Source: Acuticoccus yangtzensis (GTDB taxonomy: Bacteria; Pseudomonadota; Alphaproteobacteria; Rhizobiales; Amorphaceae). From it: a DNA stretch of 64,000 nt. How positions within the stretch are numbered: the stretch's first letter is position 1; each line of letters opens with the position of its first letter. The stretch is taken from assembly GCF_001927245.1 (NCBI RefSeq), contig NZ_MJUX01000001.1, positions 496,001 through 560,000 on the forward strand. The letters run 5' to 3'. The notes beneath the pieces were generated by a model. That model was not told where the DNA came from. It did no database searches and saw only the letters and a list, made by a program, of their open reading frames with translations. Below, piece after piece: positions 15,249 to 21,030 of the stretch. The position numbers and the translations under genes were made by a program.

Positions 15249-16139
15249 ATGACTGAAAGAGACCTCGCCTATCTTGCCGACCGGCACCGCATCACCGACG
15301 GCAAGACGTTCCGCCTGGCGGCGGTGGATCCGTTCGACACGGACGGGATCGACATCGCCAAGGGCGAGGCCAAGAGCCAGCTCGAGGCGAATGTCAGGAT
15401 CCTGCGCGACCTTCAGGAGCGGCTGTTCGCGGCCCGCCGCCACGCGGTTCTCATCATCCTGCAGGCAATGGACACGGCGGGAAAGGACAGCGCGATCGAA
15501 CACGTCATGTCCGGCCTCAACCCGCAGGGCTTCCAAGTGCGGTCCTTCAAAGCGCCGAGCCACATCGAACTCGACCACGACTTTTTGTGGCGCCACCAGG
15601 TGGCGCTTCCACCGCGCGGGCTGATCGGCATCCACAACCGTTCCCATTATGAGGAGGTGCTGGCGGTGCGCGTGCATCCGAACCTTCTGGAGGCGGAACG
15701 GATCGACTATCATCCGGACCTGTGGGCCGAGCGCTACAAGAGCATCCGCCGGTTCGAGCGCCATCTGACGGGCAACGGCACCCTGGTGCTGAAGTTCTTC
15801 CTCCACATCTCCAAGGACGAGCAGGCGCGGCGCATTCTGGCCCGCATCGACGATCCCCAGAAGAATTGGAAATTCTCCGTCGCCGACATGGCCGAGCGCG
15901 AGCACTGGGCCGATTATCAGCTCGCCTATGACGAGGCGATCCAGGCGACCGCCCGCCCCGCGGCACCCTGGTATGTCGTCCCCGCGAACGACAAGTGGTA
16001 TGCCCGGCTGGTGATCTCGAGCGTCGTCACGAAATCGCTTGAGGCGCTCGACCCGCGCTTTCCGAGCCTGCCGCCTGAGGATCTGGAACGCATGAAGACC
16101 GCCCGCGCCGCGCTTGAGCAGGAGCTCGGGCTCACCTGA
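15249..16139 (+). CDS. PPK2-family polyphosphate:nucleotide phosphotransferase
   Basis: 296 residues. The family uses polyphosphate to phosphorylate AMP, ADP or GDP, or the reverse. The fold is visible from its P-loop variant IILQAMDTAGKDSAIEHVMS (about 70-90), followed by NPQGFQVRSFKAPS, the DFLWR lid motif, the Walker B-like region around GIHNRSHYEEVL and the KFFLHISKDEQ strand. The sequence fits the single-domain subgroup named PPK2-related 1. The nucleotide preference cannot be set from sequence alone. It is 450 bases upstream of the kai operon on the same strand; energy-charge sensing by KaiC makes this proximity suggestive but no more. Confidence 0.9.
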   Translation: MTERDLAYLADRHRITDGKTFRLAAVDPFDTDGIDIAKGEAKSQLEANVRILRDLQERLFAARRHAVLIILQAMDTAGKDSAIEHVMSGLNPQGFQVRSFKAPSHIELDHDFLWRHQVALPPRGLIGIHNRSHYEEVLAVRVHPNLLEAERIDYHPDLWAERYKSIRRFERHLTGNGTLVLKFFLHISKDEQARRILARIDDPQKNWKFSVADMAEREHWADYQLAYDEAIQATARPAAPWYVVPANDKWYARLVISSVVTKSLEALDPRFPSLPPEDLERMKTARAALEQELGLT

Positions 16140-16589: not shown

Positions 16590-17435
16590 ATGGCGCGCAA
16601 GCCCGGAGCACCCGCTCGGACACAGACTTTCGACGTGCTCCTGGTCGAGGATGCGGACGGCGATGCCAAGCTCATCGCCGACTATCTGGAAGGCAGCGGC
16701 GATGCGCGATTTCGCGTCGTGCGCGTCGCCACTTTGACCGAAGCACTCGAGACCGCGCGCCACTCGCGGTTCGACGCGATCGGCCTCGACCTGTCGCTTC
16801 CCGATTCGCACGGCCCGTCCGGCGTGCGCGCGCTCTGCGACTTGTCGCGCGCCCCGGTTCTGGTCCTCACCGGCCACAACGAGGAAGATTTGGCGATCGA
16901 GTGCCTGCAGTCGGGCGCCGACGACTATCTGCGCAAGGCGGAGATGGAGCCGCGGTCCCTGGCGCGGGCCTTCGGCTACGCCATCCTGCGGCGGCGCGAA
17001 GAGGAATTGCGGACCCTGGCGGAAGCGCGCAACAGCTACACCGCGATGACCTCGAGCCCCGTCGCGACAGGCCAGCCGCGCCTCAGCAGCCTCCAGGCCC
17101 GTGACCCCGGCGGCTTCCACCAGGTGGTGATGCGCTATTACGAGACGCTCATCGCCTATACCGCCGCCGCCCGCGACGGCCTGCCCAAGCCGCGGGAAGG
17201 AATGGCCGACATCGCCCAGCGTCTGTTTTCCGCAACCTCGTCCACCCGGGACCTGATCATCCTTCACACGAAGGCGCTCGACATCGTGACCAGCGAACTC
17301 CCGCTGGCTCATCAGGCTGAAATCGTTGTCGAAGGGCGTCTTTTCGCGCTCGAAATGATGGGCGCGGTCCTCGAACTCTACCGGACCGACGTGGCGGGTA
17401 AAGTGACGGAGTCATCGCGTGCAGTTCCGACTTAG
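16590..17435 (+). CDS. response regulator with a KaiA-like (RsbU_N-like) C-terminal domain
   Basis: 281 residues in two domains. Residues 14-130 are a receiver: acidic pocket LLVEDADGD, phospho-acceptor D67 in GLDLSLPDSHG, the conserved Thr in VLTGHN and Lys in DDYLRKAEM, so it should be phosphorylatable. Residues about 176-268 form a helical domain with the motifs MRYYETLIAY, RLFSATSSTRDLIILHTKAL and EGRLFALEMMGAVLELYR. From memory of cyanobacterial KaiA, its C-terminal KaiC-binding bundle has the same order of key residues: Y..I..Y, ID..F, FF/LF, S, IH...LD, E..R, and a closing YR. RsbU N-terminal domains share this fold. The stop overlaps kaiB by 17 bases. I infer a KaiA-like activator of KaiC gated by phosphorylation; an RsbU_N-type partner-binding role is the alternative. 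Confidence 0.75.
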   Translation: MARKPGAPARTQTFDVLLVEDADGDAKLIADYLEGSGDARFRVVRVATLTEALETARHSRFDAIGLDLSLPDSHGPSGVRALCDLSRAPVLVLTGHNEEDLAIECLQSGADDYLRKAEMEPRSLARAFGYAILRRREEELRTLAEARNSYTAMTSSPVATGQPRLSSLQARDPGGFHQVVMRYYETLIAYTAAARDGLPKPREGMADIAQRLFSATSSTRDLIILHTKALDIVTSELPLAHQAEIVVEGRLFALEMMGAVLELYRTDVAGKVTESSRAVPT

Positions 17436-17709
17436 CCTTTACATCAGCGGCGAGACGGCGCGCTCTCTCGCCGCCATTCGCAACGTTCGCCTCATCGTCG
17501 ATACAGAGTTGCCCGAGGGTTACCAGCTCGAATGTATTGACGTGCAAAAGGACCCGGAACGGGCGGAGCGTGACAAAATCATGGCAACTCCAACACTTGT
17601 CCGCGAGCATCCTGCCCCGAAAAAGAAGATTATGGGCGAGTTCACGAATCATCGCGCCGTTGTCCTCGCCCTCGAGATCGACCGCCTCCAGCAAGAAACC
17701 CGCATTTGA
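17419..17709 (+). CDS. kaiB: circadian clock protein KaiB
   Basis: 96 residues from GTG 17419, inside the end of the preceding gene. It is a thioredoxin-like protein that in cyanobacteria changes fold to bind the CI ring of KaiC and sequester KaiA. Recognisable features are the first strand FRLSLYISGETARSL, the CIDVQKDPERAERDKIMATP helix-strand turn with its TPTL cis-Pro segment, and the following KKKIMGEF. The length is normal. It is followed four bases later by kaiC. KaiB-KaiC pairs occur in other alphaproteobacteria such as Rhodopseudomonas, where they act as an hourglass timer. Confidence 0.95.
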   Translation: MQFRLSLYISGETARSLAAIRNVRLIVDTELPEGYQLECIDVQKDPERAERDKIMATPTLVREHPAPKKKIMGEFTNHRAVVLALEIDRLQQETRI

Positions 17710-17713
17710 CGTC

Positions 17714-19237
17714 ATGAGTGTTGAGACCGCTTTCGACCTTCCCAAATTGCCCACCGGCGTCGCCGGATTCGACGCTATTTCCTTCGGTGGACTGGCGGTC
17801 AATGGATCGACCTTGATCGCCGGCGCATCGGGCGCAGGCAAGACCGTGTTCGCGCTGCAGTTTCTCTACGCCGGCGCGACGGACTACGGCCAGAACGGCG
17901 TCTTCGTGACGTGCGAGGAGCGCCCGAGCCGGCTCATCCGCAACGTGCGCGGGTTCGGCTGGGACCTTCAGACGCTGATCGACAAGGACGCTTTCGCCAT
18001 CGTCGACCTGTCGCCCGAGCCGCAGGAAGAAACGATCGACCTGGGGGGCAGCCAGCTCTCGGCGCTCATGGTGCGCGTGGAAGCGGCGGTCAAGCGCGTC
18101 AACGCCAAGCGCGTCGTCCTCGATTCCATCGGCTCGCTGCTGCCCCAATTCGCCGATGCGGGGATGGTGCGGCGCGAGCTTCTGCGCGTCATCTCACGCC
18201 TACTCGATCTCGACACGACCGTCATCATCACGATCGAGCGGGACGAGACGGACGAAGTGATCGGCCGCTTCGGTGTCGAGGAATATATCGCCGACAACGT
18301 CGTCATTCTGCGCAACCGGCTGGAGCGCGAAACGCGCCGCCGCACGGTGGAGATCCTGAAGACGCGCGGCACCGCCCACCAGCGCGGCGAATTCCCCTTC
18401 ACGATCGACAATCTGGACGGCGTGAACGTCGTACCCTTGTCCTCCACCACGCTCTATCAGGCCGCGCCGACGACCCGCATCTCGTCCGGGCTGGAGCCGC
18501 TCGACCAGATGACCGGGGGCGGACTGTTCGAGGCCTCCATCATCCTCGTCTCCGGCGCGACTGGCACCGGCAAGACGCTGATGGTGGCCGAGCAAGTGCG
18601 CGCGGCGATCGCCAATGGCGAGAGGTTCCTCCTGTTCGCCGCCGAGGAAGGGCGCGAGCAGCTCTGCCGCAACGCCGCCTCCTGGGGCGTCGACTTCGTC
18701 AAGGCCGAGGAGGACGGCCTGTTGAAGATCGCCAACCACTCGCCCGAGGAGTTCGGCCTGGAGGACCACCTCCTGCGCATGAAGCGACTCATTTCCGAAT
18801 TCAAGCCGAACCGCATCGCCGTCGACAGCCTTTCGGCGTTCGAGCGCGTGTCGACACCCAAATCCTTCCGCGAGTTCGTGATCGGCCTGACCGCCTTCAT
18901 CAAGGTGCAGCGCGTCACGGCGATCTTCACCAACACGACCTCGCTGTTGATGGGCACCCAGTCGGTCACCGAGACGCACATCTCGACCATCACCGATTCC
19001 ATCATCCTGCTGCGCTATGTCGAGATCAACGGCGAGATGCGGCGCGGCATCATGGTGCTGAAGATGCGCGGCACCTGGCACGAAAAGGCGATCCGCGAAT
19101 ACGTGATCGACGGGATGGGCATGCGCATCCTCGGCGCCTTCACCGGCGTGCACGGCATCCTGTCGGGCGTACCGAGCTACAGCTTCAGCGCCGAGTCCGA
19201 ACGCCTGGCCTCGATCATCTCCGAAGACGGGATCTGA
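17714..19237 (+). CDS. kaiC: circadian clock ATPase KaiC
   Basis: 507 residues, two RecA-like domains. CI: Walker A GASGAGKT (37-44) and catalytic E68/E69. CII: Walker A GATGTGKT (281-288) and E311/E312. The autophosphorylation pair of cyanobacterial KaiC is preserved as S424 and T425 in THISTITDSIILL, so this is a full KaiC with kinase/phosphatase potential. The C-terminus (AESERLASIISEDGI) resembles the A-loop and is a few residues shorter than the Synechococcus tail that binds KaiA. ATG 17714 is chosen because kaiB ends just before it; the frame is open upstream only as overlap. The next gene starts two bases after the stop. Confidence 0.96.
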   Translation: MSVETAFDLPKLPTGVAGFDAISFGGLAVNGSTLIAGASGAGKTVFALQFLYAGATDYGQNGVFVTCEERPSRLIRNVRGFGWDLQTLIDKDAFAIVDLSPEPQEETIDLGGSQLSALMVRVEAAVKRVNAKRVVLDSIGSLLPQFADAGMVRRELLRVISRLLDLDTTVIITIERDETDEVIGRFGVEEYIADNVVILRNRLERETRRRTVEILKTRGTAHQRGEFPFTIDNLDGVNVVPLSSTTLYQAAPTTRISSGLEPLDQMTGGGLFEASIILVSGATGTGKTLMVAEQVRAAIANGERFLLFAAEEGREQLCRNAASWGVDFVKAEEDGLLKIANHSPEEFGLEDHLLRMKRLISEFKPNRIAVDSLSAFERVSTPKSFREFVIGLTAFIKVQRVTAIFTNTTSLLMGTQSVTETHISTITDSIILLRYVEINGEMRRGIMVLKMRGTWHEKAIREYVIDGMGMRILGAFTGVHGILSGVPSYSFSAESERLASIISEDGI

Positions 19238-19239
19238 CG

Positions 19240-21030
19240 ATGGCCCAGGCCGCTCCCCTCCCCATCGTGCGACTGGTGCGCACCGAGGGTGCGGCCTGGG
19301 AGACGTCGCTCTTCAGGGACGGGCAGTCGATCGTCGGCGGATGCCGCGTGGAGGTGACGACCAGGCCGTCCCTCAAGGCCGCCTACGAGAGCTTGGCGTT
19401 CGACGACATCCTGGTCCTCGCCGATCACGATCTCGAGGATGGGGCAGTGCCGGAGCGCATCGCCGCCTGGGCCGAGCGCGCGGTGGTGATGGCGGTCGGC
19501 GCGATGACGGACCTGCCGGCCGCAGTCGCCGTCGTGCCGGGCGAGGACGCGCTCGCGAACGCGCTTCCCATCGTCGGCCGGCAAGCGGGCCTGTTGCGCG
19601 ACGCGCGGCGCCACCAGCGCAACCTCACCCACCTCATCAACGTCACGCCGGACGCGCTCATCGTCATCGGTGAAGAGGGCGTGGTGCAGCGGGCGAACGC
19701 GACGGCACGGCAATGGTTCGCGCCGGAGGGCGAGGACCTGGCGGGCGAGCACATCACCTTTTCCGTCGGCCCGGAGGGGGCGGAACTCGACGTCACGGTC
19801 GACGGGGAGCCGCGCATCGGCGACGTGCGCCTCGCCGAGATCGAGTGGGACGACCGGCCGGCGACGCTGGCCCTCGTGCGCGACATCACCCTCATGAAGA
19901 CGCTGCAGGACAAATTGGCCGAGGCGCAAAAGTCCGACGCCATACGCCTGATGGCCGGCGGCATCGCGCACGAGTTCAACAACATGCTCGTCGTGGCGAT
20001 GACCAACCTCTATTTCCTGCGCGAACAGGTGCAGAGCCCGGAGGCGCAGCGCCAGCTCGACGGCGTCGACAAGATCATCGAGCGGGCGCGCAGCCTCGCC
20101 AATCAGATGCTGATCCTCTCCCAGGCGCACGCGTCCGCGCCCGCCCGGCTCGACATCGCCAACACCCTCAGCGACCAGTATGCGCTGTGGCGCACCACCA
20201 TCCCCAGCAACATCACGCTGGAGGTGAACGCGGGCGATGCATCGCGTTACATCCTGGTGGACGAGGTGGAGCTGCGCCAGGTCCTCAACAACCTGATCCT
20301 GAACGCGACGGCGGCGACCGGACCGGGCGGCAAGATCACCGTCTCCACCGGCGCCACGACCGGCTCGCCCAACGGCCTGCCCCGCGGTGACTATGCCACC
20401 ATCACCGTGCGTGACACCGGCAGCGGGATCGACCCCGACGTTCTGCCGCGGATTTTCGACCCCTTCTTCACCACGCGGCCCACCGGGCAGGGTCAGGGGC
20501 TCGGCCTGTCGGTCAGCCGCGGCTATGTGAGGAAGTGCGGCGGCACGATCAAGGTGTCCTCCACGGTCGGCGAAGGCACGGCGATCACGCTCTACTTCCC
20601 GCGCGACGAAGGCCCTGCGGAGAGCGCGATGGCCGCCGCCATCCGCACCCACGGCAAGCCTCACATCCTGCTGCTCGAGGATGACGACGACGTCGCCCAC
20701 GTCATGCGGCGCGTGCTGGAGCGCGGCGGCTATCAGGTGACGCGGCGGGACAACGGGCTCGACGGGCAGGCGCTGATCCGCCGCGACAAGACGATTTCGC
20801 TGGTGGTGAGTGACGTGGTGATGCCGAAATTCGGCGGGCGGGAGCTGGCCGCCTGGCTGTTCCGCTCGCGCCCGGAGCTGAAGCTGATCCTGGTGACGGG
20901 CTACAGCGACAGCGTGGAGTGGCTGGAAGCCATCAAGGACGACACGCGCGACTACCTTCTGAAGCCCTTCCCGCCGACCGTCCTCCTGAAAGAAGTGCGG
21001 CGGATGCTGAACGGGGCCGTTGCCGAGTAG
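19240..21030 (+). CDS. hybrid histidine kinase of the kai operon (PAS-HisKA-HATPase-receiver)
   Basis: 596 residues, no membrane segment. Residues 1-125 form an alpha/beta domain that looks receiver-like (alternating strands such as DDILVLADHD and RAVVMAVGAM) but lacks a phospho-acceptor; they do not look KaiB-like. A PAS domain follows (about 128-240, with NVTPDALIVIGEEGVVQRAN), then HisKA with H244 in GGIAHEFNNML, and HATPase_c boxes NLILNATAATG, VRDTGSGIDP and GQGQGLGLSVSRG. A C-terminal receiver has LLLEDDDDV, D525 in VVSDVVMPKFGG, and the Lys in LLKPF. In cyanobacteria SasA and CikA read KaiC and KaiB; by position this kinase is the likely output, and its phosphorelay partner could be the receiver of the first gene. 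Confidence 0.92.
   Translation: MAQAAPLPIVRLVRTEGAAWETSLFRDGQSIVGGCRVEVTTRPSLKAAYESLAFDDILVLADHDLEDGAVPERIAAWAERAVVMAVGAMTDLPAAVAVVPGEDALANALPIVGRQAGLLRDARRHQRNLTHLINVTPDALIVIGEEGVVQRANATARQWFAPEGEDLAGEHITFSVGPEGAELDVTVDGEPRIGDVRLAEIEWDDRPATLALVRDITLMKTLQDKLAEAQKSDAIRLMAGGIAHEFNNMLVVAMTNLYFLREQVQSPEAQRQLDGVDKIIERARSLANQMLILSQAHASAPARLDIANTLSDQYALWRTTIPSNITLEVNAGDASRYILVDEVELRQVLNNLILNATAATGPGGKITVSTGATTGSPNGLPRGDYATITVRDTGSGIDPDVLPRIFDPFFTTRPTGQGQGLGLSVSRGYVRKCGGTIKVSSTVGEGTAITLYFPRDEGPAESAMAAAIRTHGKPHILLLEDDDDVAHVMRRVLERGGYQVTRRDNGLDGQALIRRDKTISLVVSDVVMPKFGGRELAAWLFRSRPELKLILVTGYSDSVEWLEAIKDDTRDYLLKPFPPTVLLKEVRRMLNGAVAE

Follow-up and report, generated by a model that had tools for sequence, protein, structure and literature searches.

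We describe a gene of Acuticoccus yangtzensis that joins a phosphorylatable receiver to a KaiA-like output domain, and the kai operon that it opens. The gene lies in a stretch of 64,000 nucleotides (hereafter the window) and is real and correctly read (Table 1). We think it probable that its product is a KaiA3-type activator of KaiC with a strength governed by the phosphorylation state of D67, the likeliest kinase being that of its own operon, and that the genome keeps two such systems insulated from one another. This reading is carried by an intact receiver, a C-terminal domain nearest to KaiA in profile and in fold, the operon context, conservation of the acceptor aspartate among relatives, and a reciprocal decay of receivers between this operon and a second one in the same genome.

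Results

The phosphorylation pocket is complete. The original prediction had read D67, the TGHN motif (residues 94-97, beginning with T94) and K116, and all of these were borne out by Pfam and by alignment, together with E20 and D21. The Pfam Response_reg match spans residues 16-119, and the best NCBIfam receiver matches are KdpE, CreB and BaeR (E 1e-13 to 4e-12), with NarL, the type ascribed to the receiver of KaiA3, weaker (2.8e-7). A phosphorylatable aspartate in an N-terminal receiver is a feature of the KaiA3 type, and among receiver-KaiA proteins, several of which are closely related to one another, it is present in 30 of 32, the window protein counted. Duplicates from the own genome had been removed from this alignment, as had the duplicate formed by L014 (G335) and L066, whose domain sequences are identical, the latter coming from the alphaproteobacterium Denitrobaculum tricleocarpae; G335 is listed under the same class as the genome of the window, in line with an alphaproteobacterial host. 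In a later survey of Pseudomonadota, 15 of the 28 matches listed were fetched, including one from the own genome; the 14 tested all have the aspartate, as do the proteins of two further genomes of the genus (G388 and G390).

The C-terminal half is KaiA-like, beyond chance although weakly so from the single sequence alone. The Pfam KaiA model (PF07688) matches the isolated domain with 13.4 bits (E 0.09), under its gathering cut-off of 22.2, and finds nothing in the whole genome at E up to 1. When the Protein Data Bank (PDB) was searched with a profile of 54 relatives, KaiA chains were the eight best matches (E 4.2e-5 to 3.3e-3) and RsbU (1w53) was the second-best relative (E 0.075). KaiA stood above RsbU in both profile searches, aligning across the whole domain where RsbU aligned across the first 60-75 positions only. 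In the same search with the single sequence, all the matches listed (60 of 92) were of receiver type and say nothing about this domain. An AlphaFold model of the full-length protein (28 alignment rows; mean pLDDT, the predicted local distance difference test, 91.8; pTM, the predicted template modelling score, 0.76) closes with helices at 173-196, 202-214, 219-236 and 239-277. Because a fold search with this model listed receiver-bearing structures only, the domain was modelled alone (15 rows; pLDDT 93.1, pTM 0.85), and the 12 best Foldseek matches were then all KaiA, at 14-20 percent sequence identity in the structural alignments. RsbU is not among the fold-search matches listed, which excludes nothing. 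The comparison with KaiA and RsbU_N families that the original prediction had proposed thus gave KaiA as best match, so that unrelated helical families are ruled out as best matches; a standard response regulator whose tail is unrelated to KaiA is likewise discarded by the KaiA matches in the profile and fold searches.

A closer competitor is RsbU itself, whose N-terminal domain (PF08673; 1w53) shares the fold, according to the available part of Kobler et al. 2024 (PMC11372060). Indeed, 7 of the 54 domain members match RsbU_N at E up to 1, as does a paralogue in the own genome (E 0.5), and receiver-KaiA proteins occur in three genomes with no detectable kaiB or kaiC. Still, we find it very improbable that the domain is an RsbU_N-type partner-switch domain that does not act on KaiC: KaiA comes first in both profile searches, where it aligns over the whole domain and RsbU partially, and in the fold search, and the gene belongs to a kai operon. 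Searched as far as E 10, Pfam gives no RsbU_N hit in the window protein, and the receiver is the only domain found fused to the KaiA-like one, with no PP2C phosphatase domain as in RsbU.

The operon (16590-21030, + strand) runs kaiA-kaiB-kaiC-hybrid histidine kinase, tightly packed, and the location claimed by the original prediction holds. The four genes look like a single transcription unit because kaiA and kaiB overlap by 17 bases and the following gaps are of 4 and 2 bases. The first three, adjacent and on one strand, follow the kaiA3-kaiB3-kaiC3 synteny of the KaiA3 type. In KaiC, the serine and threonine of the HISTITD motif presumably occupy the positions of the known autophosphorylation sites. 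Of the two receivers of the kinase, Pfam detects only the C-terminal one, and the decay of the N-terminal one is read from an alignment within the genus. Some 450 bases ahead of the operon lies a gene for a polyphosphate kinase 2 (PPK2; 15249-16139, + strand, Pfam E 5e-63), and one may speculate about a tie to ATP/ADP sensing by KaiC.

Table 1. Coordinates of the features discussed. Positions are those of the window, except in the last row.
Feature	Position	Strand	Remarks
kaiA3-like gene, 281 aa	16590..17435	+	ATG start; receiver and KaiA-like C-terminal domain (open reading frame, Pfam, profile-to-PDB search, AlphaFold, fold search)
Receiver domain	16626..16997	+	About residues 13-136; Pfam PF00072, E 3.6e-17; strands and helices of the AlphaFold model
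D67 codon	16788..16790	+	Predicted phosphate acceptor; aligned with 31 other receiver-KaiA proteins
KaiA-like C-terminal four-helix domain	17079..17393	+	Residues 164-268; profile-to-PDB search, domain model, fold matches to KaiA
kaiB	17419..17709	+	GTG start; 17-base overlap with kaiA; Pfam KaiB, E 1.4e-20
kaiC	17714..19237	+	ATG at 17714, 4 bases past kaiB; Pfam KaiC, E 6e-111; NCBIfam KaiC above cut-off
KaiC HISTITD motif	18977..18997	+	
KaiC C-terminal tail VPSYSFSAESERLASIISEDGI	19169..19234	+	Presumably binds KaiA; I-I stands in the place of the [LM]F found in most relatives
Hybrid histidine kinase	19240..21030	+	Begins 2 bases after kaiC; decayed N-terminal receiver, PAS, HisKA, HATPase, intact C-terminal receiver
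Second kai operon	G000:C12:361794-362555 (L002, L009)		Pseudo-receiver KaiA, D to H

The own genome (G000) holds a second full-length KaiA relative, 34 percent identical to the window protein, in an operon ordered kinase-receiver-kaiA-kaiB-kaiC-hybrid kinase. Here a histidine stands at the position of D67 and the loop after it has lost four residues. Among 41 related genomes the domain was found in five of the eight belonging to the genus and in none of the 33 others; both operons are present in G000, G387 and G389, against a single copy in each of G388 and G390. In all three two-operon genomes, window-type operons keep the aspartate of KaiA while the N-terminal receiver of the kinase shows A, N or T where its own aspartate would stand and has lost its acidic pocket (Pfam finds one receiver, not two); second-type operons have the histidine in KaiA and an intact N-terminal receiver in the kinase. 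In G388 both receivers are intact. The reciprocal decay may represent one or two events only, since it is seen in three genomes of one genus. KaiC tails are also consistently distinct, ending in ..RLxxLI or II in the window type and in ..RMETMF in the second. The two types are neighbours in the KaiC tree (92/93, under the tree tool's mark for firm support), and a long branch (0.77) leads to the window type.

Kinases accompany receiver-type KaiA genes elsewhere. Once five loci with less than 2.5 kb of upstream sequence were removed, a same-strand kinase ending at most 2 kb upstream was found for 17 of 25 receiver-type genes versus 4 of 19 other KaiA genes (p 0.003). For a stand-alone single receiver upstream of kaiA, the receiver type shows no significant excess (13/25 versus 6/19, p 0.23). 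The upstream kinases and the retained aspartate speak against an alternative in which KaiA activates KaiC and phosphorylation has no influence, the receiver being a scaffold for dimerisation or ligand binding like the quinone-binding pseudo-receiver of cyanobacterial KaiA. We regard this alternative as unlikely, although several observations fit it: all three of the genomes with two operons tolerate a pseudo-receiver KaiA, with both the D to H change and the four-residue deletion, in an operon that is complete in all other respects, kai operons also hold KaiA-like proteins with PAS domains or with no sensor, and cyanobacterial KaiA is functional without the aspartate (PMC11372060, in the part available). 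The claim of the original prediction that phosphorylation sets KaiA activity is thus favoured on comparative grounds, namely aspartate retention, reciprocity within the genus and upstream kinases.

The tail of KaiC offers a further correlate. Motif [LM]F occurs in 48 of 49 KaiA-bearing rows versus 2 of 21 KaiA-less rows (2 of 15 when only short tails are taken), counts to be read knowing that the motif was picked after the tails had been viewed and that the rows share kinship. L002, L003 and three KaiA-less rows at contig edges were removed for this test, and two edge rows with KaiA were retained. In the KaiC tree the KaiA-less rows with short tails fall in six groups, the motif being missing in four and kept in two. 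KaiC2-type rows, with kaiC ahead of kaiB and tails of 82-101 residues, have no KaiA domain in eight of eight cases.

Some observations depart from these patterns. The window KaiC, with I-I, is the single KaiA-bearing exception to [LM]F. The window operon also breaks the upstream-kinase trend, its kinase being downstream, and a general rule of an upstream kinase for each receiver-KaiA was discarded because it fails at this very operon. An exclusive link to KaiC is made less likely by receiver-KaiA genes in G298 (L121), G195 (L122) and G390 (L123), genomes 91-99 percent complete in which neither kaiC (at E up to 1e-10) nor kaiB (at E up to 1e-3) was found. In G298 and G390 the orphan lies inside a kinase-receiver-KaiA cassette, and it is possible that orphan proteins have another partner than KaiC. 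A receiver-GGDEF-type gene, its domains read from the translation only, adjoins receiver-KaiA in G298.

The domain is widespread. Of 80 loci fetched as nearest relatives of KaiB, all from outside cyanobacteria, 46 contain it, spanning Thermodesulfobacteriota, Nitrospirota, Planctomycetota, Chloroflexota, Pseudomonadota and others; the remaining 34, searched again without filters, gave no domain match below E 3. A receiver is present in 26 of the 48 domain-bearing open reading frames of these loci, by our own receiver profile. Elsewhere the domain is fused to one PAS (L023, L024, L025, L048, L091), two (L040, L049) or three (L078). In a Nitrospinaceae metagenome-assembled genome (MAG) it follows, with HAMP-PAS, a chemoreceptor-type four-helix sensor (L034:372-2051, - strand), and in a Candidatus Kuenenia hertensis MAG it is joined to HAMP-PAS and a Cache-like stretch below the Pfam cut-off (L097:5933-7915, + strand), both beside kaiB-kaiC. 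The original prediction had taken proteobacterial kai loci to be known mainly without kaiA; this premise, and with it the idea that the present gene is a first, is not supported, given published orthologues (PMC11372060, available part) and our finding of the domain in 22 of 398 sampled Pseudomonadota genomes (13 of 338 among the good ones). An earlier class-level sample with a weaker, two-row profile had given 7 of 385 genomes, one unconfirmed. One candidate, L016 (G175, E 0.0075), was dropped when the larger profile did not confirm the domain, and a plasmid search with the C-terminal stretch of a genus-mate gave no match.

Several other arrangements were seen along the way. In an alphaproteobacterial genome (G163) kaiB-kaiC is preceded by a KaiA-like protein that combines two PAS domains with a decayed receiver (L015:289-1854, + strand). 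Four Planctomycetota loci (L031, L035, L072, L073) have, ahead of kaiB-kaiC, short KaiA-like frames of 165-223 aa from stop to stop that show no match to a receiver. An additional KaiB-like frame, beyond the usual kaiB, lies just upstream of the KaiA-like gene at L040:6077-6721, L055:6410-6727 (Accumulibacter) and L097:5413-5868. In a Helarchaeota MAG, receiver-KaiA is followed by two kaiB-kaiC pairs (L042:5052-9814, + strand), with contamination or a binning error possible.

Discussion

The arrangement of the window operon suggests how its parts could work together. The C-terminal four-helix domain, expected to dimerise by analogy with KaiA, would grip the tail of the KaiC whose gene is the second one downstream and, once bound, promote KaiC autophosphorylation, an action that KaiB would afterwards oppose. 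The receiver would be the input. Its D67 may be phosphorylated by a histidine kinase, for which the hybrid kinase that closes the operon is the likeliest candidate, and the strength of the KaiA domain would be tuned in this way, in whichever direction the phosphate acts and with whatever rhythm might follow. Side by side in the genome, one system would thus take its phosphate input on KaiA (window operon) and the other on the N-terminal receiver of the kinase (second operon), and the differing KaiC tails may keep both KaiA-KaiC pairs separate.

The kinase could also act at the other end. In cyanobacteria, SasA is a kinase that reads KaiC, and by analogy the hybrid kinase may read the state of KaiC while the KaiA receiver closes a feedback loop that carries no outside signal. 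Its place after kaiC, shared by many relatives, and its own intact C-terminal receiver fit this idea, yet Pfam finds no KaiB-like sensor domain in it and in other loci the kinase precedes kaiA, often alongside a single receiver. As the whole account we consider it decidedly unlikely, although the ideas of an input and an output kinase are mutually compatible.

The chimera as such is not new, because receiver-type KaiA3 and other KaiA variants have been published. Synechocystis KaiA3 (Sll0485) combines a receiver with a KaiA-like domain and oscillates in vitro with KaiB3 and KaiC3; orthologues occur in five non-cyanobacterial genera, including Rhodospirillum and Bradyrhizobium, with kaiA3B3C3 synteny, and the available part of that article gives the cognate kinase as not identified (Kobler et al. 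2024, PMC11372060). The available part of Dvornyk and Mei 2021 (PMC8113500) describes cyanobacterial KaiA variants with different domains at the N terminus, as well as two records of KaiA from outside cyanobacteria. Compared by its published description, Sll0485 resembles the window protein in its phosphorylatable aspartate (D65, here D67), its four-helix domain, its size of about 280-300 aa and its place upstream of kaiB and kaiC; unlike it, the window operon ends in a hybrid kinase and the genome has a second operon with a pseudo-receiver KaiA. Canonical cyanobacterial KaiA (PDB 1q6a, 1r8j, 5c5e) differs in having a pseudo-receiver without the aspartate, and in a C-terminal domain to which ours bears only the distant likeness reported above. 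With KaiA-less KaiC2-type timers such as that of Rhodobacter sphaeroides (PMC11372060, available part) the window shares a proteobacterial KaiB and KaiC, but not the gene order, the long KaiC tail or the lack of a KaiA domain of the KaiC2-type loci surveyed here, its own KaiC tail being short. In the open-licence PMC literature we found nothing on a second operon with reciprocal receivers, aspartate retention, [LM]F tails, or sensor fusions and orphan copies. What distinguishes the present case is the sister operon in the same genome, where the switch is lost on KaiA and kept on the kinase.

A wider reading, to which we give nearly but not quite even credence, is that the C-terminal domain of KaiA, far from being peculiar to cyanobacteria, is an interchangeable output module of old origin that links phospho-receivers, PAS domains and HAMP- or Cache-bearing or chemoreceptor-like sensors to KaiC throughout bacteria and perhaps also in archaea. 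The KaiA of cyanobacteria would then be one branch in which the phosphate input was lost, the copies of this genus would split the input between KaiA and kinase, and orphans may act on a target other than KaiC. Our wider survey suggests that KaiC is commonly under KaiA-type control beyond cyanobacteria, with many sensors connected to it. As a candidate KaiA kinase is encoded in the same operon, and the sister operon provides a natural control without the phosphate site on KaiA, the setting of a Kai timer by a two-component system becomes directly testable in non-cyanobacteria.
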